A stretch of DNA of 64,000 nucleotides. It comes from Verrucomicrobiota bacterium. Its GTDB lineage: Bacteria; Verrucomicrobiota; Kiritimatiellia; SS1-B-03-39; UBA6053. Below are positions 2,182 to 55,359 of the stretch, piece after piece. A program made the translations under genes and the position numbers. Every line of letters starts with the position of its first letter. Within the stretch, counting starts at the first letter, position 1. The DNA lies in the NCBI GenBank assembly GCA_020831635.1, contig JAFIGC010000005.1:1-64000 (forward strand), written 5' to 3'. Under the pieces are notes generated by a model. The model had not been told where the DNA came from, did no database searches, and saw only the letters and a program-made list of their open reading frames with translations.

Positions 2182-2229
2182 ACTCTACCCAAGGGCACGG
2201 GTTTTCTCCAAGCAAAGTTGCACGCCAGG

Positions 2230-2243
2230 ATGCGTAATGTTAC
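2230..2243. promoter_or_regulatory. Partial LacI-type operator upstream of the pseudopilin gene
   Basis: ATGCGTAATGTTAC is identical over 14 bases to one strand of the 18-base palindrome at 11627-11644 in front of the LacI gene. The distal half here continues ACTG instead of GCAT. It overlaps the stop codon (2240-2242) of the upstream gene and lies 49 bases before the pseudopilin start, a suitable place for a promoter operator. Confidence 0.5.
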
Positions 2244-4558
2244 ACTGCCCAAACGAAAGTGCCGCCGGGGGGAACTTCCACGCTGGGCAGGAGCGCAGCG
2301 TAATTCGCGTGCAAAACCTTGGTTGCGGCCATTGCGGAGGTCTCCAACTGCACGCGTACCCGTGCCGGAAAGGCGGTCGGGTTGTGGAGACGGAGGGCCG
2401 TGCGCCCCTCGTCGGCCCATGCGGCGCGAACGTGATCCAAACTGCGGATGAGCCCCGTGTCCGGTTGGGCATACACGCCCGGCAAGTCACACCACGTGAG
2501 CATCATCGCCACCTCACACCAGCAGGAATACGCCGCCTGTTCGCCCAAAGGCTCCGCCCAGGAGGGGGTGATGTTGACCCGTTCGCACATCCAACCCGTC
2601 GGCAGTTCCGCGAAGGGATGGCCCCAAGTGATGCGGGTGGGAATTTTCCGATCCTCCCGGGAGAGGAACTGGGGCAGCGCGTGGGCGATATCGCAAAGGA
2701 GATCCAGCAAACGCACGTCTCCCGTGGCCCGAAAGGTGCGCAAGATCCCCTGACCGGACAGCGTGCAGATGCCCGGCACGCCGCATTTGTTCTGCGCGTT
2801 GGCGATCATGGTGCCGCGCGCGTCGCAGCCGATTTGCGCGAGGGCGGAATTCGGCGGAAATTGATAGGGATACGAAATTGCCCAGGACGCCCCCTGATGG
2901 CAGGCCCGCACCGCCGCCACCCGCCATATGGCGTCACCCGTCAACTCAAAGAGGCTGATGAAACTCTCAATCAGTCCAAAGATGGATTCGCCGTCCGGGG
3001 CCTGCAAGGCGTCCCCGGGACCACCCGTGGTCACCCCCCAGGCGAGGTCGTGACTTCGGAAAAATTCCCCGCTTTCCCGGGCGACCTCAAGGAAACGCGG
3101 CTCGGAAAAATATTGGGAGGCCAAGGCCAGTGCCCCGGGAATCAGCGCCCCGGAAGTGGACCCGCGAATGGCGATCCGTCCCGTTTCGGTATCGAGCAGA
3201 AAACCAAACTCCCCTTCCCACGCCCAGACATCACAGATGGCCTCGGCCGCGCCCCGCGTGGCCGCGTTCCACCGCTCCGGCACCGCATGGCCGCGTTCGC
3301 TCAGGAGCATCAACTGACGCAGTACAAACAGCAGACAGTCCCCCTGACGCCGCACCAGGCAGAGGGACGGGTCCTTGGGGATTTCTTCGCCTTGATTTTC
3401 CTCGCGGCACCAGGCCTCGTCGCCGCCCACCTTCCGGTCGCCCTTCCATTCCCCCGACTCGCTCATGGTGGCCTTGAAAAGTCCGAGATCCGACACCCCC
3501 TCGGTCAGCAGAAAATCCAGATTCCGTATCGCCCGCTCCACCGACATCGGCCCACCCTCTTGCATCATCGCGAAGGTCGTGATTCCGCCGCCAACCCAGC
3601 CGTTTTGCCAGAACTGTGTGGCCTGATCTTCCACCCACGGAATTCCGATCGCATAGAGACCGTGGGATTCCTTCCAGTTTTGCTCATTGTGTTTTCGCTC
3701 CAGCAAATCCCAAGCCGCGGAAAAAGGCAACACCTCCGGCTTTGCGGTGGCGGATTCGGGGAACATCGCCGTGCGATGCGCAAAGAACCGTTCAAAAAGT
3801 CCGTGCACATCCGCACAGGGAAACACATGTTGCTCGAAGGCAAAAGAAATCGACTCCCCCTGCCCCACATCCGCGGGCCGCGCGTTTTCAGGATGTCGGT
3901 GCCCCGCCGCCTGATTGCCGATGCCCAGCATGGGATCGGTGTCTGCGGGAAGCGGATGCAAAAACCCGGGGGCCAAGAGCATCAATTCCGCTCGGTCGCG
4001 CGCGTCGTTTTCACTGAGTTCGATGCCGATGGGGCCATGACTGGCGTTCTGTGGCATGAGAAGCATCAACGCTTCGCCGGAATGCGCAAAGCGAATGCCC
4101 ACGCCGGGCACGGCGGCGTCCAGGGAGGTTTGATCCAGATGCGAGCGCCCCTCGCCCTTGGTCAAACGGGGAATGTCCCCGATATCCAGCAAAAGCCGGT
4201 CACCCCGTTGCCCAATATCGCGGATCTTCGGCGAATAAGGACGGCGCATGGCATCAAAACGGTTGCCCGCGTACACCGCCCCCGGAATGAGCACGTAGTT
4301 TTCCACCGACCAGTCGTCCAATTTCCAGACCAAGCCCGCCGACACCCCCGACGCATTCCCCTCGATCACGGTCGCCGTGAACGTGGCGACCTTTCGCCCC
4401 TCCCCCTTGTCCGCCCAACCCAGATCGAGCCGCCACCGCGCACCCGCAAAATCCACCGATGCCGGGCAAGCTTGCGTGGGAACATCCAGAATTTCGACAC
4501 GTTCTCGGTCATGATGGCGTGCAAGGCGGAAGTGAAGACTTTCGATGGCGTTTTTCAT
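2240..4558 (-). CDS. Large protein of unknown family, probably carbohydrate-related with a helical toroid
   Basis: 772 residues, no signal peptide, ATG at 4558. I do not recognise a named family. An N-terminal part (about residues 1-250) looks beta-rich. From about residue 270 there are helical stretches rich in aromatic and acidic residues, such as WVEDQATQFWQNGWVGGG, EDRKIPTRITWGHPF and SWAEPLGEQAAYSCWCEV, as in (alpha/alpha)6-barrel glycosidases or lyases. The final part (about 690-772) again looks like a beta-sandwich. It lies between a pseudopilin and an AraC regulator, all on the minus strand, in a window rich in sugar genes, so carbohydrate processing in the cytoplasm is a fair guess only. 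Confidence 0.55.
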   Translation of the reverse strand: MKNAIESLHFRLARHHDRERVEILDVPTQACPASVDFAGARWRLDLGWADKGEGRKVATFTATVIEGNASGVSAGLVWKLDDWSVENYVLIPGAVYAGNRFDAMRRPYSPKIRDIGQRGDRLLLDIGDIPRLTKGEGRSHLDQTSLDAAVPGVGIRFAHSGEALMLLMPQNASHGPIGIELSENDARDRAELMLLAPGFLHPLPADTDPMLGIGNQAAGHRHPENARPADVGQGESISFAFEQHVFPCADVHGLFERFFAHRTAMFPESATAKPEVLPFSAAWDLLERKHNEQNWKESHGLYAIGIPWVEDQATQFWQNGWVGGGITTFAMMQEGGPMSVERAIRNLDFLLTEGVSDLGLFKATMSESGEWKGDRKVGGDEAWCREENQGEEIPKDPSLCLVRRQGDCLLFVLRQLMLLSERGHAVPERWNAATRGAAEAICDVWAWEGEFGFLLDTETGRIAIRGSTSGALIPGALALASQYFSEPRFLEVARESGEFFRSHDLAWGVTTGGPGDALQAPDGESIFGLIESFISLFELTGDAIWRVAAVRACHQGASWAISYPYQFPPNSALAQIGCDARGTMIANAQNKCGVPGICTLSGQGILRTFRATGDVRLLDLLCDIAHALPQFLSREDRKIPTRITWGHPFAELPTGWMCERVNITPSWAEPLGEQAAYSCWCEVAMMLTWCDLPGVYAQPDTGLIRSLDHVRAAWADEGRTALRLHNPTAFPARVRVQLETSAMAATKVLHANYAALLPSVEVPPGGTFVWAV

Positions 4559-11585: not shown

Positions 11586-11626
11586 GGTGATTTCAAATCA
11601 GGACGCGGTCTTATTGTCAAGCTTGC

Positions 11627-11644
11627 ATGCGTAACATTACGCAT
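11627..11644. promoter_or_regulatory. LacI operator, perfect 8-2-8 palindrome
   Basis: ATGCGTAA-CA-TTACGCAT lies between the divergent LacI and PEP-CTERM genes. On the minus strand a TTGACA sequence follows at once (11618-11613), a possible -35 box of the LacI gene. On the plus strand it sits just upstream of a -35/-10 pair for the PEP-CTERM gene. Its core GCGTAACATTACGC recurs with one symmetric change at 54239-54252. Confidence 0.7.
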
Positions 11645-11652
11645 CGGACAAC

Positions 11653-11682
11653 TGGACAAAAAAGCGCCGGCGGGTGTATCTT
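11653..11682 (+). promoter_or_regulatory. Candidate promoter of the PEP-CTERM/glycosidase run
   Basis: TGGACA at 11653-11658, an 18-base spacer and TATCTT at 11677-11682 resemble a sigma-70 promoter. It lies 9 bases after the operator and 42 bases before the start at 11725. Confidence 0.4.
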
Positions 11683-12547: not shown

Positions 12548-14782
12548 ATGCGAACCCGCACCGCTCTCTCTTCCAGCCTGCTTCTGCTCGGCCTCGTCGC
12601 CTGCATGAAGAACCCGGAATCGGCCCAACACAGTGGCCCCATCCACCCTCACACCGGCTGGGCGGAATGGGAACTGTGGCGGGACTGGCCGGGCGAATCC
12701 TTGCGGGAGGAATCCAATTCCTCCCGCTGGGAAACCCCGCCCACCCGCCACCTCCCCCTCCGTTCCCTGGAATCGGCCCGGGATGTCATGGATGATTTTG
12801 CGGTGCGCATTTCGGGCCTTCTGATCCCGCCCGCCTCGGGAACGTATTCTTTTTTGTTGGCGTCCGAAGGAGAAGTGATGCTGCGTCTGGACGAGGAGGA
12901 GTTTCTTTTTTCCAGCGGGGGCACGGCCCGAAGCGAAGGCATTCGCCTTGAAAAAAACAACCCGGTCGCCTTCCAACTGCTTCACAAAGGCGGACAGGGC
13001 CCCGACCGGCTCAGCTTGGGCTGGATCCCGCCCGACGGCGAGTTGGAGATGCCCATTGGCGGAAATGCCATTGCCTCCCTTGCCGATCCCGCCGAAATAC
13101 AGGCCCGCAATCTGCGCCGGGTATTGATCGACAGCCGATTGCGCACCTACGACGCGGAACGCCACATGGCCCTGCACCCGCACAATCCGCGCCCCGGCGA
13201 ACACATCGTCCGCGAAACCTTTTACACCGCCGGTGCACTGCTGGAAAGCGACGACCCGGAGGACCACGCGGAGGCTTTCCGCGCCATCCGCGCCGTGATC
13301 GGCCTGCAAAACAATTATGCGCCTTCCTCCTCGCACGGCAACTGGCCGCGGGTGGTTCAACAACCCGGAAACTTCAACGCCCAGAACATCGGCGGCTTTA
13401 TCGGCGCGGAAATCATTGTCATGCTTCAACGTCATCCAGACAAATTGTCCGAAGATCTCCACACCGCCCTCCAAGAGGCACTGCGCCACGCCGCCCACCG
13501 TTCGCGCCGATACAATCCCCCCGTTACCGCCACCAACATCGTCACCAAGGCCATCGCCGTGGCCTTGATTGCCGACGCGATGCTGGACATTCCCGAAGCC
13601 CGCGCCTGGGGCGAAACCCGCCTGCGCGAACTGCATGACCACACGCTGGAGGCGGGGATACCCTCCGAATACAACAGCCCCACCTACAACCGGGTCACCC
13701 TCGAAGCCCTGACCCTGCTGCGAACCTATTTTTTCGACGACGAACTTTCTCCGCTGATTGAAGATCTGTATCGTATTTCCTGGCGCGAATTGGTGCTCAA
13801 CTATCATCCCAACCTGCAACTTTGGGTGGGCAACGCCGCCCGCAGTTACGACGGCATCACCCACCCCGGCGCCCGCTTGCAGGAAGCCACGGAGTTTGTC
13901 CATTTCTTCGGGGAAGTCAGCGCCAGCCGCCTGCCCTCCCCCCTGCCCGAGGAATTTCTTCCCCATTTGGCTCCCCTGACCGACGCCGAAACCCGAACCA
14001 TCCCGGTGTTGGGCGGCGGACGGGAAGCCGACATCATTTTCCAGGAAAGTCCGGTGCCGTTGGTGTCCACCCTGTATTTACACCCCGCCTACGCCCTGGC
14101 CAGTTTCAACCGCGGCGATCTCTGGAACCAGCGCCGGGCCTTGACGCTCACCTGGGGGCGCCGCGATCATGCCGGACACCTCACCCTCGCCTCGCCCTCC
14201 GGCGCACAGGGTCTGCTGGCCGCGCAAACCACCGCGCTGCAAGACAAAAACCGTATCCTGCTGCTGGTCAATTTCGCCACCGACGCCGGTTGGGGCCAAC
14301 ACCCTTGGGAACTGTATGGGATCGACCGCGAAGCGCCCTCGCGCAATATCGCCGGGGTTCGCGTTCGTTTTCAAAACCAGGGCGCCGACCGACTGCGGTT
14401 TGAGATTCCCGAACAGATGGATCAGCCCGTCACCGCCCACGCGGACGGGATTCGTCTGGCCCTGCGGCTGGTGGGCGGTCAGTTTGGACCCGACGCCCTC
14501 CGCTGGGAGCAAACCCGCGACGGACACCTCGATTTGGTGCTCAATGAGAACGCCCCCCTGAATCTGCACGAACTGGAATCCGCCCATGCGGCCATCGCCC
14601 TGGAAGTACTCGAAGACGACACCGCCGACGATTGGCTTGCGGACGTGCGACTGACTACCGACGAAACACACGCAACCCTGCAAGCCCCCGGTCTCACCCT
14701 CCGCGCCGCGGCGGCCCCCGCGCCTTACGCCCATTTGCAAACCCGAATTTCTGATCAACCCACCCCCGGAGAAACCCCATGA
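12548..14782 (+). CDS. Lipoprotein with PA14-like domain and alpha-helical toroid
   Basis: 744 residues from the ATG at 12548. This start follows the PEP-CTERM stop by 10 bases and gives a lipoprotein signal (LLLLGLVAC near residues 11-19). Residues about 70-150 look like a PA14 sugar-binding domain (SGLLIPPASGTYSFLLASEG, EVMLRLDEE). From about 210 there are helical repeats with HGNWPRVV, SEYNSPTYNRVTLEAL and NYHPNLQLWVGNAARSY, as in (alpha/alpha)n-toroid lyases and hydrolases. The last ~250 residues look like a beta-sandwich. The family is not certain; a surface-anchored polysaccharide lyase or binding protein is the best inference. The stop overlaps the next start (ATGA). Confidence 0.7.
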   Translation: MRTRTALSSSLLLLGLVACMKNPESAQHSGPIHPHTGWAEWELWRDWPGESLREESNSSRWETPPTRHLPLRSLESARDVMDDFAVRISGLLIPPASGTYSFLLASEGEVMLRLDEEEFLFSSGGTARSEGIRLEKNNPVAFQLLHKGGQGPDRLSLGWIPPDGELEMPIGGNAIASLADPAEIQARNLRRVLIDSRLRTYDAERHMALHPHNPRPGEHIVRETFYTAGALLESDDPEDHAEAFRAIRAVIGLQNNYAPSSSHGNWPRVVQQPGNFNAQNIGGFIGAEIIVMLQRHPDKLSEDLHTALQEALRHAAHRSRRYNPPVTATNIVTKAIAVALIADAMLDIPEARAWGETRLRELHDHTLEAGIPSEYNSPTYNRVTLEALTLLRTYFFDDELSPLIEDLYRISWRELVLNYHPNLQLWVGNAARSYDGITHPGARLQEATEFVHFFGEVSASRLPSPLPEEFLPHLAPLTDAETRTIPVLGGGREADIIFQESPVPLVSTLYLHPAYALASFNRGDLWNQRRALTLTWGRRDHAGHLTLASPSGAQGLLAAQTTALQDKNRILLLVNFATDAGWGQHPWELYGIDREAPSRNIAGVRVRFQNQGADRLRFEIPEQMDQPVTAHADGIRLALRLVGGQFGPDALRWEQTRDGHLDLVLNENAPLNLHELESAHAAIALEVLEDDTADDWLADVRLTTDETHATLQAPGLTLRAAAAPAPYAHLQTRISDQPTPGETP

Positions 14783-15408
14783 AATGCCTCGCCCTTTTGC
14801 CCTTGTTCGCACTCACCCTCCTTCAGGCCGAACCCTTGGTGATTTATCCCAGCAGCGACAACCGCGTTCTCGATACCGACGGCAGCGGACACGGCAACGA
14901 AAGCCGGGCCCTAGATCATGAGGGGGAGGCACTCAACATCGGGGACAATGCCAACGATTCCGTCTGGCGCTCGATCCTCAAATTTGATCTGCGCGAGCAA
15001 AAAGACGCACTGGCAGATGCCGAAAAACTGCACCTGCGCCTCACCGTCCGTCAACGCCTCTTGCAAACCCCGCGCGACTGGACCTTTCAGGTGCTGCACA
15101 TCCCCAGCGAACATGCGGACCGGATCGTGATCACGCCCACCGGCGATGACGACGAATTCAGCCGCGATGGCAAAATCATTCACGAACAACCCGCGGGCAC
15201 CGTCCGCAGCGGGGAACAAGTGGAAATTGATATTACCGACGCGGTAAAAGCGGCATTGGCGGGCAACGGCATCCTCGCCCTGCGCCTGCAACTGGACCCC
15301 GCCACCAACAAAGACAAAACTCTCGACCAGATCTCTTTCTTCTCCGGTTCCCACAACGTCAATACCCCCAGCCTCCGCCCTCAGATCATCGTTGCCGCCG
15401 GAGAGTAA
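14779..15408 (+). CDS. Secreted DNRLRE/CBM96-like domain protein
   Basis: 209 residues with a short signal peptide (MKCLALLPLFALTLLQAEP). The body is one beta-sandwich: LVIYPSSDNRVLDTDG at the start, SILKFDLREQ in the middle, and VEIDITDAVKAALAG followed by LALRLQLD near the end. This pattern is the DNRLRE/CBM96-like carbohydrate-binding module. The PEP-CTERM protein at 53441 has a related domain. Translation is coupled to the preceding lipoprotein by a 4-base overlap, and the next gene begins 2 bases after its stop, so the three are almost surely one transcript. Confidence 0.75.
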   Translation: MKCLALLPLFALTLLQAEPLVIYPSSDNRVLDTDGSGHGNESRALDHEGEALNIGDNANDSVWRSILKFDLREQKDALADAEKLHLRLTVRQRLLQTPRDWTFQVLHIPSEHADRIVITPTGDDDEFSRDGKIIHEQPAGTVRSGEQVEIDITDAVKAALAGNGILALRLQLDPATNKDKTLDQISFFSGSHNVNTPSLRPQIIVAAGE

Positions 15409-15409
15409 G

Positions 15410-18400
15410 ATGCGGAAGTTTCTTTGCGCGGGCCTTATGACCTTGGCAACCGTATCCACCGCGGTTTCGTTCGATTGGCCGGAGGACGACCTCCAAGGCG
15501 CCCTCCGCCTGCGTTTCCGACTCGGCGGCGTGGAAAGCACCTTCGACCTGCCCGCGCGTGCCGCAAATCGGGTGGCGCAAACCGTGCTGCTCGACACCCC
15601 CCGTTTCCGCGTGAACCTCAATGTGGACCGGAATAAAACCACCCTGCATTTTTTCTTTTTTGCCGACGAAGCGGAAAACGGCGCTTGGGCGCTCCATGGC
15701 GTGGACCGACTGAACGGCGTGCCGGAAACGCCCTACAAAGTCGGGGTCGTGGATCTGAGTCACCTCAAAGGGGGACGCGATTACGAACTCTGGATCAACT
15801 GGGATTTGGCGGAAAAGGAACTCCAAGTCTGGCTCAACGGCGAACGCCAAGGCGATCCCTTCACCGCCAACCGTCAACCCTGGATCCCCGCCCCTCCCCG
15901 GCCCGGCCCCGCCCGCGTTGGAACCGCGCTTCAGGATGGCGACACGACGTTCCCCATCCACATCCTCGAGGCCGAAGCCTTCTCGCCACCCGGGGACGAA
16001 ACCCGCGTGCGCGCTTCCTCCGCCGACCTGGCCCGTCTGGAAAACGAGGGACGCGTGGTTTTCACCGCCCCCCTGGACCTGAGTCCCTACCAGCGCACCC
16101 TCCGCTACGCGCCGGATTTTTCCGAAATCAGCATCCTTGCCGAGACAGACCTCTTCGACGCCGAAGATCAGCGGACCCGTGCCCCGTCGGCGCAAGAATG
16201 GGTGCTCGAAGGAGGTGCCCGCGCCACCGCAGGGCCCGACGGTCTGCATTTGGACACCCGACCGGAGGGAGAAGACACCCCGGAAATCACCGCCGCCAGC
16301 GGTCACCTCGTCCTCTGGGCCCCGGCCACCCTGCCGGAAAATTTCCTGCTCGAGTACGATTTTGAACCCGAATCCCCGCGTCGCGGGCTCCATATCCTCT
16401 TCTGGAACGCCCTCGCCCGTTCCGGGGCGGACATCTTCGATCCCGAAAGCGGTTTGCCGTTCCGCAACGGCGTTTTTTCCCACTACACTTGGCAAGGCGT
16501 GAACAGCTATCACGCCTCCCTCTTCGCCACCGACGACGAGGAACCCCGCCGCGTCGCCAACCTCCGCAAAAACAGCGGCTTTGTGCTCGCCGCCTGCGGC
16601 GAGGATGCAGTCTACGGCGTCGAAGGGCCGGTCCGCATCCGCCTCCTGCGCGACGGAACGGTCATGCGCCTGGAAGCCAACGGACGCGAGGTGATGCGCT
16701 ACAACGATGACGGCAAAGCCAACGGACCGCCCCTGCACGGCGGACGCTTCGGATTCCGCATCATGGCCCACACCGGCGCGGCCCGCATTTCCAATTTGCG
16801 CCTCTATGAATTAACCCCGCTCTCGGAGGAAACGCGGGGCCAAGCCCTGCTGAATTTTGAGGGACTGGAGGCGGAAGCGGTCCCGTCAGACTGGCAAATC
16901 GAGGGGGATGACGCGCAAAGCGCGCTCCACCAAGACCCGCTCGTGGAGGGACGCGGCTACTTGCGCCTGCTGCAAGCAGAGGATGCCCCCACGACCCTGA
17001 CCCTGCCGCTGCCCGCCTTGGACGAAGCGGGGCGATTGACCCTTCGTTTGGGCGTGCGCAGTCCGCAATCCAAGTGGCTGCAAATCCACCTTGCCCGCGA
17101 CGGGAACAATGTCTGGTCTCACAACCTTGCCCTTGGACGCGGCTGGCGCGAGGAGGCGCTTGATTTGGCCCTCCCCGCCGGAGACCCGATGGAACTCTCC
17201 CTCTCCTTCCATGGCGAAGGCCGGGTGGATCTGGAATCCCTCGAAATTCGGCACATCGATGCCCAGGCCCTGCGGGCCGGCGCGGTCCGGCGCGAGCGCC
17301 CCGGTCATGCCGGCAATTTGTTGCGCAACAGCCGTCTGCCCCTGGGTCTCCCCTCCGGCTGGCATCTCGACCGCAATGTGGACGACGAAACGGACCTGGA
17401 GTGGGCAATCGACCCGGATGTTTCCGGTCCCTCTGGATTCCCCGCCCTACAACTTCACAGCCGGCGTCCCGTGGCCCTGTTCACCGAACCCTTCACCCCC
17501 ACCCGCCCCGGCGAAGTCCACACCGCCCGCCTCCAAGTCCGCGGCCCCGCCAAAGGGCGTTTGCAAATCTACCAAGACGGCATTCCGGTGGCGGAAGCCC
17601 TCGACTTTTCCGTCGAGGAGGAGTGGGCCGAACAGCGCTTGAGCTTTACCGCCGCGCCGCTGGCCCGCCTGAGCACCCTTCGCATCGAAATCGACGGCAC
17701 CGCCTGGCTGGATGATTTTCAGATCCATGCCGGCACCGACCCCCTGCCCTCCTCGAACCGCGCCGAAGTCGCCTTGGTGGTCCCCCGCTTCTCCCGCATC
17801 GTGTTTCACGACGAACCCTTGGAGATCCTCTGGACGGTCACTGACGCCCCGGAAGGCGCAATCCTCCGCATCCGGATCGTGAACCTCTACGACGAACAGG
17901 CCCGGCCCACTCCCGTCTCCCTCGACGCGGCCCCCATTCAATCCGGCAGCCTGCGCGCGGATCTCTTTCCCGAACGTCCGCTGGGACAATTCCGCGTTGA
18001 AGCCCGGGTCGAGACCGCCCGCGGGGAAGCTCTCGGCCCCTGGAACGAGTTGGTGGTGACCCGCCTGCAACGTCCACGCGATTTGGGCGAACCGCATCCC
18101 GACTCCCCCTTTGGGATTCACGTGCCCGCCACCGCGCGGCACCTCGAAATGGCCGGCGCCATCGGCATGCGCTGGGTGCGGTTGCACGACATCGGCGGCA
18201 ACCAGTGGTTTCACCTCGAACCGCGTCCCGGCGAATGGCATTTTCGCGATGAAGGTATTCACCGCACCCGCGCCGCCGGCTTCGAAATCCTCGGTGTACT
18301 CGTCAGCACGCCCCTCTGGGCCAACGCCTGGCCGGGAGAAGACAAACCGCTGGTGCACGGCTATTGGGACATGTTCGGCATGCCCGGAGACCTCGACGCC

Positions 18401-19318
18401 TTTGCCAACTACGTGCGGGTCTTCACCCGGCGCTACGAGGGCGTGATTGCCGCCCACGAAGTCTGGAACGAACCCTGGGTCCCCCGCTTTTTCAGCGGAC
18501 GCCGGGAACTGCAACCCGTGGGCGAACCCGAATATTTCCACGGCAAAGATCCCCGGGGCGACTACGCCGCCCTCAGCCATGCCGCCCGCATCGGCGCCGG
18601 ACCCGACGTTGTGCTCGCCGGACTCAACTCCAGTGCCGGGGCCACTCTCGCCAACCGCATCTCCGGGACCGATTGGAGCCGCGGCGTGCTGGAGGCGGAC
18701 GGCATCGCCCCCGTGGACGTGGTCACCTACCACCACTATTCCCCGGCCCGCTCCGCCTATCCCGGCGATGATGTCGAGGCCGGATTTCAGCGCGCCATCG
18801 GCCCCCTGCTCGAAGCGGGTCTCACCCCCCGCGTCTGGATGAGCGAAGGCTCCAACACCCCCGGCGGACTTCCCGGCACTTTCTATCGGCATACCCTGCC
18901 CGCCCACGATCCGGTGAACCTTATCGACTCCGCCGACGCCCTCGCCCGCTACGTCCTCGCCCTGCTCGCCAGCGGAAATGAGAAACTCTTTCTCTACAGC
19001 ATGCACGCGCACGGACTTTGGGGACGCCGCGACCGCTTCGTTTCCCTCATCCAGCCCGACGGTTATCTGCATCCCGACGCCGCCGCCTTCAGCGCCCTCA
19101 GCCACGCCCTCGAAGGCACAAGCTTCGCTTCCCGCAAACGCGGCGAAGACCACGCCACCCGCTATCGGTTTCAGGGTTCCGACCGAGAGGTACTCCTCAT
19201 CGCCCCCGACCCCGAACACCCCATTCCCGCCCCCGCCGGGGCCATGGATCTCTGGGGAAATCCCGCACGGGGACCGCAACGGCATCTTTTCATCCGACAA
19301 TCCGACAATCGTCCATGA
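15410..19318 (+). CDS. Large secreted protein: DUF1961 domain plus clan A glycoside hydrolase
   Basis: 1302 residues from the ATG at 15410 (GGAGAG is 5 bases upstream), with a signal peptide MRKFLCAGLMTLATVSTA. Residues about 260-465 match DUF1961 (YDFEPESPRRGLHILFWNA, FSHYTWQGVNSYHASLFAT). Beta-sandwich modules follow to about 880. From about 900 there is a TIM-barrel hydrolase resembling GH39 and related clan A families: FGIHVPATARHLEMAGAIG, VRLHDIGGNQW, then WNEPW with the putative acid/base Glu1021 and VWMSEGS with the putative nucleophile Glu1146. Substrate unknown. It closes the run starting at 11725 and is probably periplasmic or extracellular. Confidence 0.8.
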   Translation: MRKFLCAGLMTLATVSTAVSFDWPEDDLQGALRLRFRLGGVESTFDLPARAANRVAQTVLLDTPRFRVNLNVDRNKTTLHFFFFADEAENGAWALHGVDRLNGVPETPYKVGVVDLSHLKGGRDYELWINWDLAEKELQVWLNGERQGDPFTANRQPWIPAPPRPGPARVGTALQDGDTTFPIHILEAEAFSPPGDETRVRASSADLARLENEGRVVFTAPLDLSPYQRTLRYAPDFSEISILAETDLFDAEDQRTRAPSAQEWVLEGGARATAGPDGLHLDTRPEGEDTPEITAASGHLVLWAPATLPENFLLEYDFEPESPRRGLHILFWNALARSGADIFDPESGLPFRNGVFSHYTWQGVNSYHASLFATDDEEPRRVANLRKNSGFVLAACGEDAVYGVEGPVRIRLLRDGTVMRLEANGREVMRYNDDGKANGPPLHGGRFGFRIMAHTGAARISNLRLYELTPLSEETRGQALLNFEGLEAEAVPSDWQIEGDDAQSALHQDPLVEGRGYLRLLQAEDAPTTLTLPLPALDEAGRLTLRLGVRSPQSKWLQIHLARDGNNVWSHNLALGRGWREEALDLALPAGDPMELSLSFHGEGRVDLESLEIRHIDAQALRAGAVRRERPGHAGNLLRNSRLPLGLPSGWHLDRNVDDETDLEWAIDPDVSGPSGFPALQLHSRRPVALFTEPFTPTRPGEVHTARLQVRGPAKGRLQIYQDGIPVAEALDFSVEEEWAEQRLSFTAAPLARLSTLRIEIDGTAWLDDFQIHAGTDPLPSSNRAEVALVVPRFSRIVFHDEPLEILWTVTDAPEGAILRIRIVNLYDEQARPTPVSLDAAPIQSGSLRADLFPERPLGQFRVEARVETARGEALGPWNELVVTRLQRPRDLGEPHPDSPFGIHVPATARHLEMAGAIGMRWVRLHDIGGNQWFHLEPRPGEWHFRDEGIHRTRAAGFEILGVLVSTPLWANAWPGEDKPLVHGYWDMFGMPGDLDAFANYVRVFTRRYEGVIAAHEVWNEPWVPRFFSGRRELQPVGEPEYFHGKDPRGDYAALSHAARIGAGPDVVLAGLNSSAGATLANRISGTDWSRGVLEADGIAPVDVVTYHHYSPARSAYPGDDVEAGFQRAIGPLLEAGLTPRVWMSEGSNTPGGLPGTFYRHTLPAHDPVNLIDSADALARYVLALLASGNEKLFLYSMHAHGLWGRRDRFVSLIQPDGYLHPDAAAFSALSHALEGTSFASRKRGEDHATRYRFQGSDREVLLIAPDPEHPIPAPAGAMDLWGNPARGPQRHLFIRQSDNRP

Positions 19319-19590: not shown

Positions 19591-20778
19591 ATGAAAACTT
19601 TCAGTTCCAACCATCCCGCGCGGGTTTGTTTTCTTAACGGCAACCCCCTAATGCTGGTGATGGAAATTTGGTACGGCATGGTTTCCGAACTGAGGAACAC
19701 CCCTTGGATTCGCATGATCATGCTCGATCTCAACGAACGGGACGTTCAAAAGGCGGTGGACTGGGGCGCCGACCTGCTGGTGGCCCACGTGGGGTCCGAA
19801 ACCGCCAACGCGTGGCTTTTGGCTACGGGCCTGCCAGTCATCAACACCTCCGGGATCCAAGATCCCGCCCCATTTCCGACCGTGACCCTGGACAATCACC
19901 GAACCGGAGAGGAAGCCGCAAAACATCTTTTGGAAAAAGGCTATACCCGCTTCGGGTTTGTGGGGGAGACCCGGCCCCGCTACGCGCGTGAGCGCTTGGA
20001 GGGGTTCACCGCAACCATCCAAACCGCTGGCTTTGCCCCACCACGGGTCTGGCAGGAGAAGTTGGAATCCTTTGAATTCAAGGACCCCAGCGAACACCTG
20101 GGCATCGCGCACAGATTGTACGATTGGGCCGCGGGGGAAGGCCAGGGCATGGGCTTGTTGGTTTTGGATGATTTCTTGGGGCAAACCGTTATGGATCATC
20201 TCTCCCTGGCCACTCCCGATTTTCTGCAGGAAATCGGCCTGGTCAGCACCCACCATTTCCGCGTCCCCACCTTCCCCACCCTCTCGGGGGTCAAACAATC
20301 CGAGGAAAGGTGGGGTCGGGCGGTGGGCAGGCTGGCGATCGACATTCTGCAGGGCAAGCCGGACATACCGGCGCTGACACAGGTGTCGCCGATGGGGGTG
20401 CTGGGACGGGAGACCACCTCCACCCGCCACACGCATGACCACCGGGTTCGGCAGGCCCTGCGCCTGATTCACCGCGATGTGGCCCAAGGGATCAACGTGC
20501 AGGATGTCGTGGACAAGATGGAGGGCATCCAGCGCCGCGCCCTGGAACGGCGTTTCGTCGAGGCCACCGGCCACAGCATTCTGGAGGAGATCCAGCAAAC
20601 CCGCATTCAGCGGGCCTGTCTATTGCTTTCCGACACAGAACAGTCTTTGGAGGAGGTGGCCAGGAACGCGGGATTCCGGGACACGCGCCACCTGCACCGG
20701 GTGTTCACCGCCAAAATGGACACCGATCCCGCTGAATACCGTCAGCGCAACCTTGGGGTGAGCGGGACGCCTACATAA
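19591..20778 (+). CDS. XylR-like regulator (sugar-binding domain plus AraC helix-turn-helix)
   Basis: 395 residues. The N-terminal ~275 residues form a LacI/PBP1-type effector domain (FPTVTLDNHRTGEEAAKHLL, GFVGETRPRYARERLEGF, LVLDDFLGQTVM). The C-terminal ~105 residues are an AraC-type DNA-binding domain (RRALERRFVEATGHSILEEI, EEVARNAGFRDTRHLHRVF). This is the architecture of xylose regulator XylR, but verrucomicrobia carry many such paralogues with other inducers. Start ATG at 19591 after GGGGGCG. Convergent with the PEP-CTERM gene at 20800-21636, whose promoter region has a direct repeat suited to an AraC-type activator. The 272 bases before it show no feature. Confidence 0.9.
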   Translation: MKTFSSNHPARVCFLNGNPLMLVMEIWYGMVSELRNTPWIRMIMLDLNERDVQKAVDWGADLLVAHVGSETANAWLLATGLPVINTSGIQDPAPFPTVTLDNHRTGEEAAKHLLEKGYTRFGFVGETRPRYARERLEGFTATIQTAGFAPPRVWQEKLESFEFKDPSEHLGIAHRLYDWAAGEGQGMGLLVLDDFLGQTVMDHLSLATPDFLQEIGLVSTHHFRVPTFPTLSGVKQSEERWGRAVGRLAIDILQGKPDIPALTQVSPMGVLGRETTSTRHTHDHRVRQALRLIHRDVAQGINVQDVVDKMEGIQRRALERRFVEATGHSILEEIQQTRIQRACLLLSDTEQSLEEVARNAGFRDTRHLHRVFTAKMDTDPAEYRQRNLGVSGTPT

Positions 20779-54238: not shown

Positions 54239-54252
54239 GCGTGACATCACGC
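54239..54252. promoter_or_regulatory. LacI operator candidate, perfect 6-2-6 palindrome
   Basis: GCGTGA-CA-TCACGC. Identical to the core of the operator at 11627-11644 except for one symmetric pair (A to G and T to C). Lies 31 bases upstream of the PEP-CTERM start and 67 bases upstream of the LacI start. Confidence 0.6.
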
Positions 54253-54318: not shown

Positions 54319-55359
54319 ATGAAGAAATCCACCAATCAGCGTGAAATTGCCAAGGCGGCGGGGGTGTCTCCGGCGACGGTTTCGTTGGCCTTGCGCAATC
54401 ATCCGAGCATTCCCGAGGCCACCCGCTCCCGGATTCGGCAGGTGGCGGAGCAACTGGGCTATCAACCGAACCCGCGGGTCGCGGAACTGATGGGCCACAT
54501 CCGCCGCAACCGGGGGGTGGACGCGTTGGGCGAAACGGTGGCATTGTACTGGAGCGATGCGGAACGGGCCAGGGTTCATGCCTTTGCCCATCTTCGCAAA
54601 CTGGAGGATGCCGTCCGAAAAAGGTTGCGGGACAACGGATATGGGCTGGAATGTCACTATCAGGATCCCGCCGTTTCCGCGGCCCGCGTGGAACGGATGT
54701 TGGGGGCCCGCGGAATTCGGGGGCTACTGCTGGCCCCGCTGATCCAACTCCCCCACCGTCACTTGAATTGGACCTGGGCGAATTTTTCCGTGGTCATTGC
54801 CGGCAGCGGGCTCTGGCGTCCGGAATTCAACCGCGTGCGCTTCCATCACTTCGCGGAAATGGGGGAAATCCTGCATCATTTGCATCGCCAAGGAAAGAAA
54901 CGAATCGGAATGGTCACCGATCTGCGGGTGGAAAACCGTTCCCAGCGAGCCATTTCCGGCGGATTCTGGGCGAGAATTTCCCCGGACATCCGCAAGATGG
55001 ATGCGGTATTTGAGTCCGATGCCGAAAACAAAAAGGCCTTTCTAAAATGGGTCAATGCTTTCTCCCCGGAATGCCTCATCGTCAGTTGTCCCCCCATCCT
55101 GGAGTGGATCCGGGAGGCAGAAACGAACCCGGAACTGATCCTGACCAGCATGGAAATGGCCCCGCTCGGCAGCCATTATGCCGGCATCCAACAAAATTAT
55201 GCCCGCCTCGGTGAAGCGGCAACCGATCAATTGCTCGCACAACTCCTGCTCAATCAAACCGGAATTCCAAAAGATCCCGTCAAAGTGTTTATTACCGGGG
55301 AGTGGCAAAGCGCCGGAGACCCGCCGGAGTCCCGCATTCAGGGCCTGTCGATTTATTGA
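54319..55359 (+). CDS. LacI-family transcriptional regulator
   Basis: 346 residues. HTH: TNQREIAKAAGVSPATVSLAL, then RNHPSIPEATRSRIRQVAEQLGYQPNPRVAELMGHIR (read in two parts: SRIRQVAEQLGYQPNP, RVAELMGHIR). Effector domain with RGLLLAPLIQLPHRHLNW, GKKRIGMVTDLRVENRSQ and the C-terminal AATDQLLAQLLLNQTGIPKD. Divergent from the DNRLRE-type PEP-CTERM gene, which it probably controls with itself. Confidence 0.93.
   Translation: MKKSTNQREIAKAAGVSPATVSLALRNHPSIPEATRSRIRQVAEQLGYQPNPRVAELMGHIRRNRGVDALGETVALYWSDAERARVHAFAHLRKLEDAVRKRLRDNGYGLECHYQDPAVSAARVERMLGARGIRGLLLAPLIQLPHRHLNWTWANFSVVIAGSGLWRPEFNRVRFHHFAEMGEILHHLHRQGKKRIGMVTDLRVENRSQRAISGGFWARISPDIRKMDAVFESDAENKKAFLKWVNAFSPECLIVSCPPILEWIREAETNPELILTSMEMAPLGSHYAGIQQNYARLGEAATDQLLAQLLLNQTGIPKDPVKVFITGEWQSAGDPPESRIQGLSIY

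Follow-up and report, generated by a model that had tools for sequence, protein, structure and literature searches.

Genomes in this superphylum contain pilin-like genes by the dozen, with no known purpose, and the 64,000-nucleotide stretch of a Verrucomicrobiota genome analysed here (the window) raises the question of whether one of them, the pseudopilin gene P0001, answers to the LacI-type regulator P0003, whose operator lies 9 kb away on the same contig. A preliminary description had connected the two through a 14-base exact match, and this match is real: ATGCGTAATGTTAC at 2230-2243 of the forward strand corresponds to 11644-11631 read on the reverse strand. Even with its two central bases left free, the 6.0-Mb genome has no exact copy of ATGCGTAATGTTAC besides the one at 2230-2243 and the one within the operator at 11627-11644; base composition predicts 0.02 exact 14-mers for the whole genome and 0.0002 for the window. 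From comparisons of promoters, we consider it likely that P0001 belongs to the regulon of P0003.

P0001 (1441-2175, reverse strand; 244 amino acids) is the sole pilin found within the window, in a genome with 30 prepilin-motif matches. Its prepilin N-terminal motif is clear (PF07963, 39.7 bits against a cut-off of 21.2; TIGR02532, 35.8 against 16.3), and its score with TIGR01710, the model for GspG, the major pseudopilin of type II secretion, is 43.8 bits, below the cut-off of 88.85. With the H-X9-DG/DUF1559 pseudopilins of PVC bacteria (TIGR04294, PF07596), it shares the N-terminal GFTLIE prepilin motif, the long helix, the small head and a C-terminal H-X9-D. It differs from them in that its DUF1559 match is limited to the N-terminal part and in that its own sequence reads H-X9-DS, not H-X9-DG as had been stated (19.1 bits for the C-terminal motif model TIGR04294, against 19); its predicted substrate-type regulation would be a further difference. 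The head of the AlphaFold model has low confidence, and its PDB match is not significant. We set the start codon at 2175, rather than 2181, because a -10-like hexamer, TAGAGT (2182-2187, reverse strand), stands 6 bp 5' of that ATG; the gap to the 14-mer is then 54 bp instead of the 49 bases originally given. The position of TAGAGT suggests a leaderless transcript. Of the 8 other pilin promoters in the lacI/pilin series described below, 7 also have a TAnnnT at this spacing; near the starts of this genome's other pilins it is found only on contigs C94 (6 bp) and C216 (7 bp).

The regulator P0003 (10581-11585, reverse strand) is assigned to the LacI family by its helix-turn-helix (PF00356, 32.3 bits against a curated cut-off of 27). 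On the sensor side it has no Pfam Peripla_BP match, is 37% identical over its full length to another LacI-type protein and aligns partially to the CytR and MalI models; a PDB search found nothing. The operator ATGCGTAACATTACGCAT (11627-11644, forward strand), between lacI and a PEP-CTERM gene, has perfect 8-bp arms, a criterion taken from PMC4052901, and is centred 50.5 bp before lacI. Its centre is CA and not the CG typical of LacI-type operators, which does not exclude it, because centres other than CG occur in a minority of LacI regulators (PMC4052901). Directly downstream lies the -35-like TTGACA of the lacI promoter (11615-11620, reverse strand), and on the other side the -10-like TATCTT of the divergent, enzyme-side promoter (11677-11682, forward strand), which is conserved in G003, a genome of the same genus, where it just precedes the start of the PA14 gene. 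The divergent genes, all on the forward strand, encode a PEP-CTERM protein (P0004, 11725-12537), a PA14-domain, lipoprotein-like product (12548-14782) with a 69% relative divergent from lacI in G003, a DNRLRE/CBM96-like protein (14779-15408; both models below their cut-offs) and a protein of about 1300 amino acids with a DUF1961 (YesU-like) domain (15410-19318), relatives of which are found near lacI/pilin loci in G003, G000:C108 and G010:C102. The earlier label of a glycosidase run is not borne out by Pfam, which gives PEP-CTERM, PA14, a sub-threshold CBM96 and DUF1961 beside lacI. At the end of the run lies the gene of a XylR-like regulator (19591-20778), in which a sensor domain of LacI type is joined to a DNA-binding domain of AraC type. 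Elsewhere in the genome, a one-mismatch copy of the P0003 operator, ATGCGTATATTTACGCAT, lies near the end of contig C175 (L002:1501-1518), with no lacI or pilin gene recognised nearby.

The pilin-promoter site, CAGTGTAACATTACGCAT on the gene's strand (2230-2247, reverse strand), includes the exact 14-mer at 2230-2243 and is centred 62.5-63.5 bp upstream of the ATG. It is partly coding because it overlaps the end of the upstream gene P0002 (2240-4558, reverse strand; 772 amino acids), whose TAA stop codon, at 2240-2242 on the reverse strand, falls inside the 14-mer and which is separated from P0001 by only 58-64 bp. Between the 14-mer and P0001, 21 bp nearer the gene, sits a second LacI-like operator, TGCAACTTTGCT (2211-2222, reverse strand), one mismatch from TGCAANNTTGCA and centred 41.5 bp upstream of the ATG. 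Read as a full 18-bp palindrome, the pilin-promoter site has mismatches at 3 of 16 positions, and sites of this class number 12 genome-wide against 9 in a reversed control, the count with up to three mismatches showing no excess. As a lone palindrome count is thus at chance level, the link between pilin and lacI needed independent tests. The P0002 family (about 660-800 amino acids), for which no Pfam or PDB relative was found, is kept in Kiritimatiellota relatives at 37-50% identity, and another of its members stands directly 5' of a pilin gene at G003:C79.

One such test scored the best shared near-palindrome between the upstream regions of 30 lacI and 30 pilin genes of this genome, that is, 900 pairs. 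The P0003/P0001 pair scored 24, tied second among the 900, with five pairs at 23 or above; the P0001 promoter scored 22 with that of the other lacI at 54319. Three of the top seven pairs lie on the same contig (the window, C94 and C8), for which the chance probability is about 3e-6, counting five such neighbouring pairs. The lacI gene at 54319-55359 is itself preceded by a perfect palindrome, GCGTGACATCACGC (54239-54252), which agrees with the pilin site in 11 bases out of 14.

Orthologous promoters could be compared in one species pair, G003 being the only genome with both orthologues (70% identity for LacI, 73% for the pilin). Absence of the half-site from orthologous promoters of close relatives had been named as the observation that would speak against the link, and a diverged version of the site does occupy the corresponding position: in the pilin promoter, GTGCAACATTGCAC falls exactly on the window's GTGTAACATTACGC (consensus GTG(T/C)AACATT), and in the lacI promoter, TGCGTAATGTT is retained unchanged. 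The two sites in G003 have TGCAACATT in common, and the two in this genome GTAACATTACGCAT; between the genomes, the half-sites of the lacI and pilin operators appear to change together. The G003 lacI site, TGCAACATTACGCA on the other strand, differs from the G003 pilin site, TGCAACATTGCA, and the pair scores 17, a background value, in the palindrome test. The gene upstream of the G003 pilin is divergent, and P0002 is not adjacent.

When GTDB contigs were searched with an alignment of the pilin, no further close orthologues of P0001 came up; the relatives named there (UBA6053, UBA6056, B1221 and B12222) put this uncultured bacterium in Kiritimatiellota. In the clade formed by P0001 and six homologues (53-73% identity), TGCAA-NN-TTGCA (TGCAANNTTGCA) is found upstream of 6 of the 7 genes with at most one mismatch in 10, C108 being the member that lacks it, and it is missing, within the same limit, from all 28 other pilin promoters in this genome. 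The usual operator is replaced, just before the C108 pilin, by a long inverted repeat, GTGAGATATT...AATATCTCAC (L121:9740-9790); the gene content of this locus is only partly like that of the window, its 748-aa lipoprotein being unrelated to the PA14 protein. Across 11 genomes the pattern RTGCAANNTTGCAY turns up in 6 places, compared with 4 for the control, which is no excess in number; judging by coordinates, no fewer than four of these places adjoin a lacI gene or lie ahead of a pilin.

The pairing of lacI and pilin recurs. At five other loci a pilin gene directly follows lacI, with one operator type before both, or before an enzyme gene and the pilin, and four types are represented. At G000:C8 a single type stands before a sulfatase/GH43 pair, lacI and the pilin (GCGCAAGGTTGCGC, GTGCAACCTTGCGT and ATGCAAGGTTGCAT), and at G010:C102 a shared operator stands before a gene for an enzyme-like, CBM4_9-containing product as well as before the pilin that follows lacI. 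The lacI and pilin operators pair as ATGTTCATAGGAACAT and ATGTTCCTTGGAACAT at G000:C94, and as TGTAAACACGTTTAGA and AGTAAACGTGTTTACA at G003:C80, adjoining an alpha-L-fucosidase gene. An out-of-sample check covered three further direct lacI-pilin pairs, from G007, G008 and G009; that of G008 (TGTAAATATTTACA and TGTAAATAATTACA) scored 24. No shared operator was found at G005:C27 and G007:C133, where lacI is followed by a pilin, at C211 and G009:C96, which are tightly packed, or at G005:C13 and C108. A pilin directly after lacI was observed three times in G000 against 0.13 expected, and there are further cases. The regulatory link first proposed from the 14-mer is thus supported by the rank among the 900 pairs, by the aligned orthologous operator and by these recurring loci with duplicated operators, and the operator-like sequence in front of the pseudopilin is probably a functional site and probably part of the P0003 regulon.

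The main rival to P0003 is a paralogous LacI. The pilin promoter would then be a true LacI target, but of the regulator at C8:21498 (with TGCAACCTTGCG) or of the window lacI at 54319, its likeness to the P0003 operator reflecting shared LacI half-sites. A paralogue could be the regulator because several LacI paralogues of the genome use similar TGCAA-type operators and the second site at 2211-2222 is of this type; the lacI at 54319, for its part, has GCGTGACATCACGC upstream (54239-54252). Yet the central CA together with the TTACGCAT arm is common only to the pilin site and the P0003 operator, the match to the latter extends to 13 of 14 bases against 11 of 14 for the lacI at 54319, and the centre of the pilin operator in G003 is CA, as for the P0003 orthologue, where the C8-like regulator (C15) has CC; we consider a paralogue unlikely. 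We hold it to be more improbable still, to the point of being a poor explanation, that the 14-mer arose by coincidence close to the end of P0002, the pilin being simply co-transcribed with that gene. The overlap with the P0002 stop codon, the 58-64 bp between the genes and the chance number of three-mismatch palindromes speak for it, but G003 holds the operator at the same position, with a divergent upstream gene and no adjacent P0002, a -10-like element stands 6 bp before the ATG as elsewhere in the lacI/pilin series, and the rank among the 900 lacI-pilin pairs is high.

Within the explanation by P0003 there is the sub-question of the direction of control. Most LacI-family members repress, and P0003 could be an ordinary repressor at the pilin promoter, the fixed spacing described here being due to common promoter ancestry, a reading to which we give somewhat less than an even chance. 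It agrees with the lacI genes of G000:C8 and G003:C15, where the operator is centred at 36.5 bp (-36.5), over the -35. The target operators, on the contrary, are found farther upstream than the -35 position, at about -52.5 and, a turn of the helix away, at about -63, and the pilins and enzymes behind those promoters are not homologous to each other. The distance from operator centre to start codon is 51.5-54.5 bp in eight target promoters (pilins and enzymes), 62.5 bp for the window pilin and 63.5 bp for the G003 pilin, with the second window site at 41.5 bp, and the steps between 41.5, about 52.5 and about 62.5 each approximate a turn of the helix. For G008, examined out of sample, the operator at about 49.5 bp from the start is near, yet outside, the range of 51.5-54.5 bp, and the calculated P value overstates the case because start codons and hexamer rule were chosen while viewing the data. 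Activator sites often lie upstream at such helix-phased positions. A nearly fixed, helix-phased operator upstream of a -10 without an evident good -35 makes activation of the pilin and enzyme promoters somewhat more likely than repression. Taken with predicted start sites, the pattern may be read as LacI activating its targets and repressing lacI.

We propose that P0003 would bind ATGCGTAA-CA-TTACGCAT, which separates the P0003 gene from the PEP-CTERM/PA14/DUF1961 genes, and likewise GTGTAA-CA-TTACGCAT in the pseudopilin promoter, perhaps helped by TGCAACTTTGCT. A single ligand could then switch the surface and enzyme genes together with one pilin, in whichever direction, and the window would be an unlinked form of the arrangement recurrent in the family, in which lacI, polysaccharide-active genes and one pilin have one operator specificity. 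Judging from gene neighbourhoods and shared operators, pilins in these Kiritimatiellota probably belong to programmes of polysaccharide use. The pilin might be a substrate-specific subunit of a pilus or pseudopilus, binding the polymer or serving enzyme export. One might speculate further that several Kiritimatiellota LacI-type regulators each own a dedicated pilin, that LacI activators at helix-phased sites (-41.5/-52.5/-62.5) of leaderless promoters switch on this pilin and the matching sulfatases or glycosidases, and that the pilins adapt a common pilus or pseudopilus to a particular polysaccharide; as a whole we find this scheme possible but doubtful.

In the polysaccharide utilization loci of Bacteroidetes, SusC/D go with local regulators, and regulator, surface protein and enzymes are switched as a substrate-specific set; the recurring envelope partner in the lacI/pilin loci is instead a pilin. 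The large comparative survey of LacI-family carbohydrate regulons by Ravcheev et al. 2014 (PMC4052901) describes local regulons that resemble that of P0003 in having an autoregulated lacI beside polysaccharide-related genes, few targets per regulator and, as sites, short palindromes of even length that mostly lie 30-140 bp before the start codon. The operators described here differ in their centre, which is CA (or GG, GA) and not CG, and in standing, helix-phased, at an almost constant distance from a start of the leaderless type. That survey makes no mention of a pilin as a regulon member, nor of Verrucomicrobia, and a literature search of partial coverage found no paper linking LacI regulators and pseudopilins. 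Planctomycetes, of the related superphylum, have pili-like fibres that bind dextran (PMC5394234), the kind of role proposed for the pilin. By this analogy a polymer-binding pilus is plausible, no more; the word 'pilin' is absent from the text of that paper, and the parallel is functional and speculative only. Single pilins wired to single LacI regulators and enzymes would have a testable function, substrate-specific capture or export, and the lacI/pilin pairing would offer a simple route to predict which pilin matches which polysaccharide.

Some neighbours of the shared operators also deserve mention. At G003:C15, the gene behind the operator that follows lacI encodes a protein of 230 aa that looks secreted and belongs to no Pfam family (L123:6648-7347), at the place where C8 has its pilin. 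In G005, a 2120-aa protein without a Pfam match (L125:8763-15125) is divergent from the pilin across the shared operator. At C8 itself, a short open frame, MKTYFSGEPVLRLVKNP, lies 3' of the pilin operator and before the pilin gene (L122:7560-7670), its ATG standing 56.5 bp past the operator centre.
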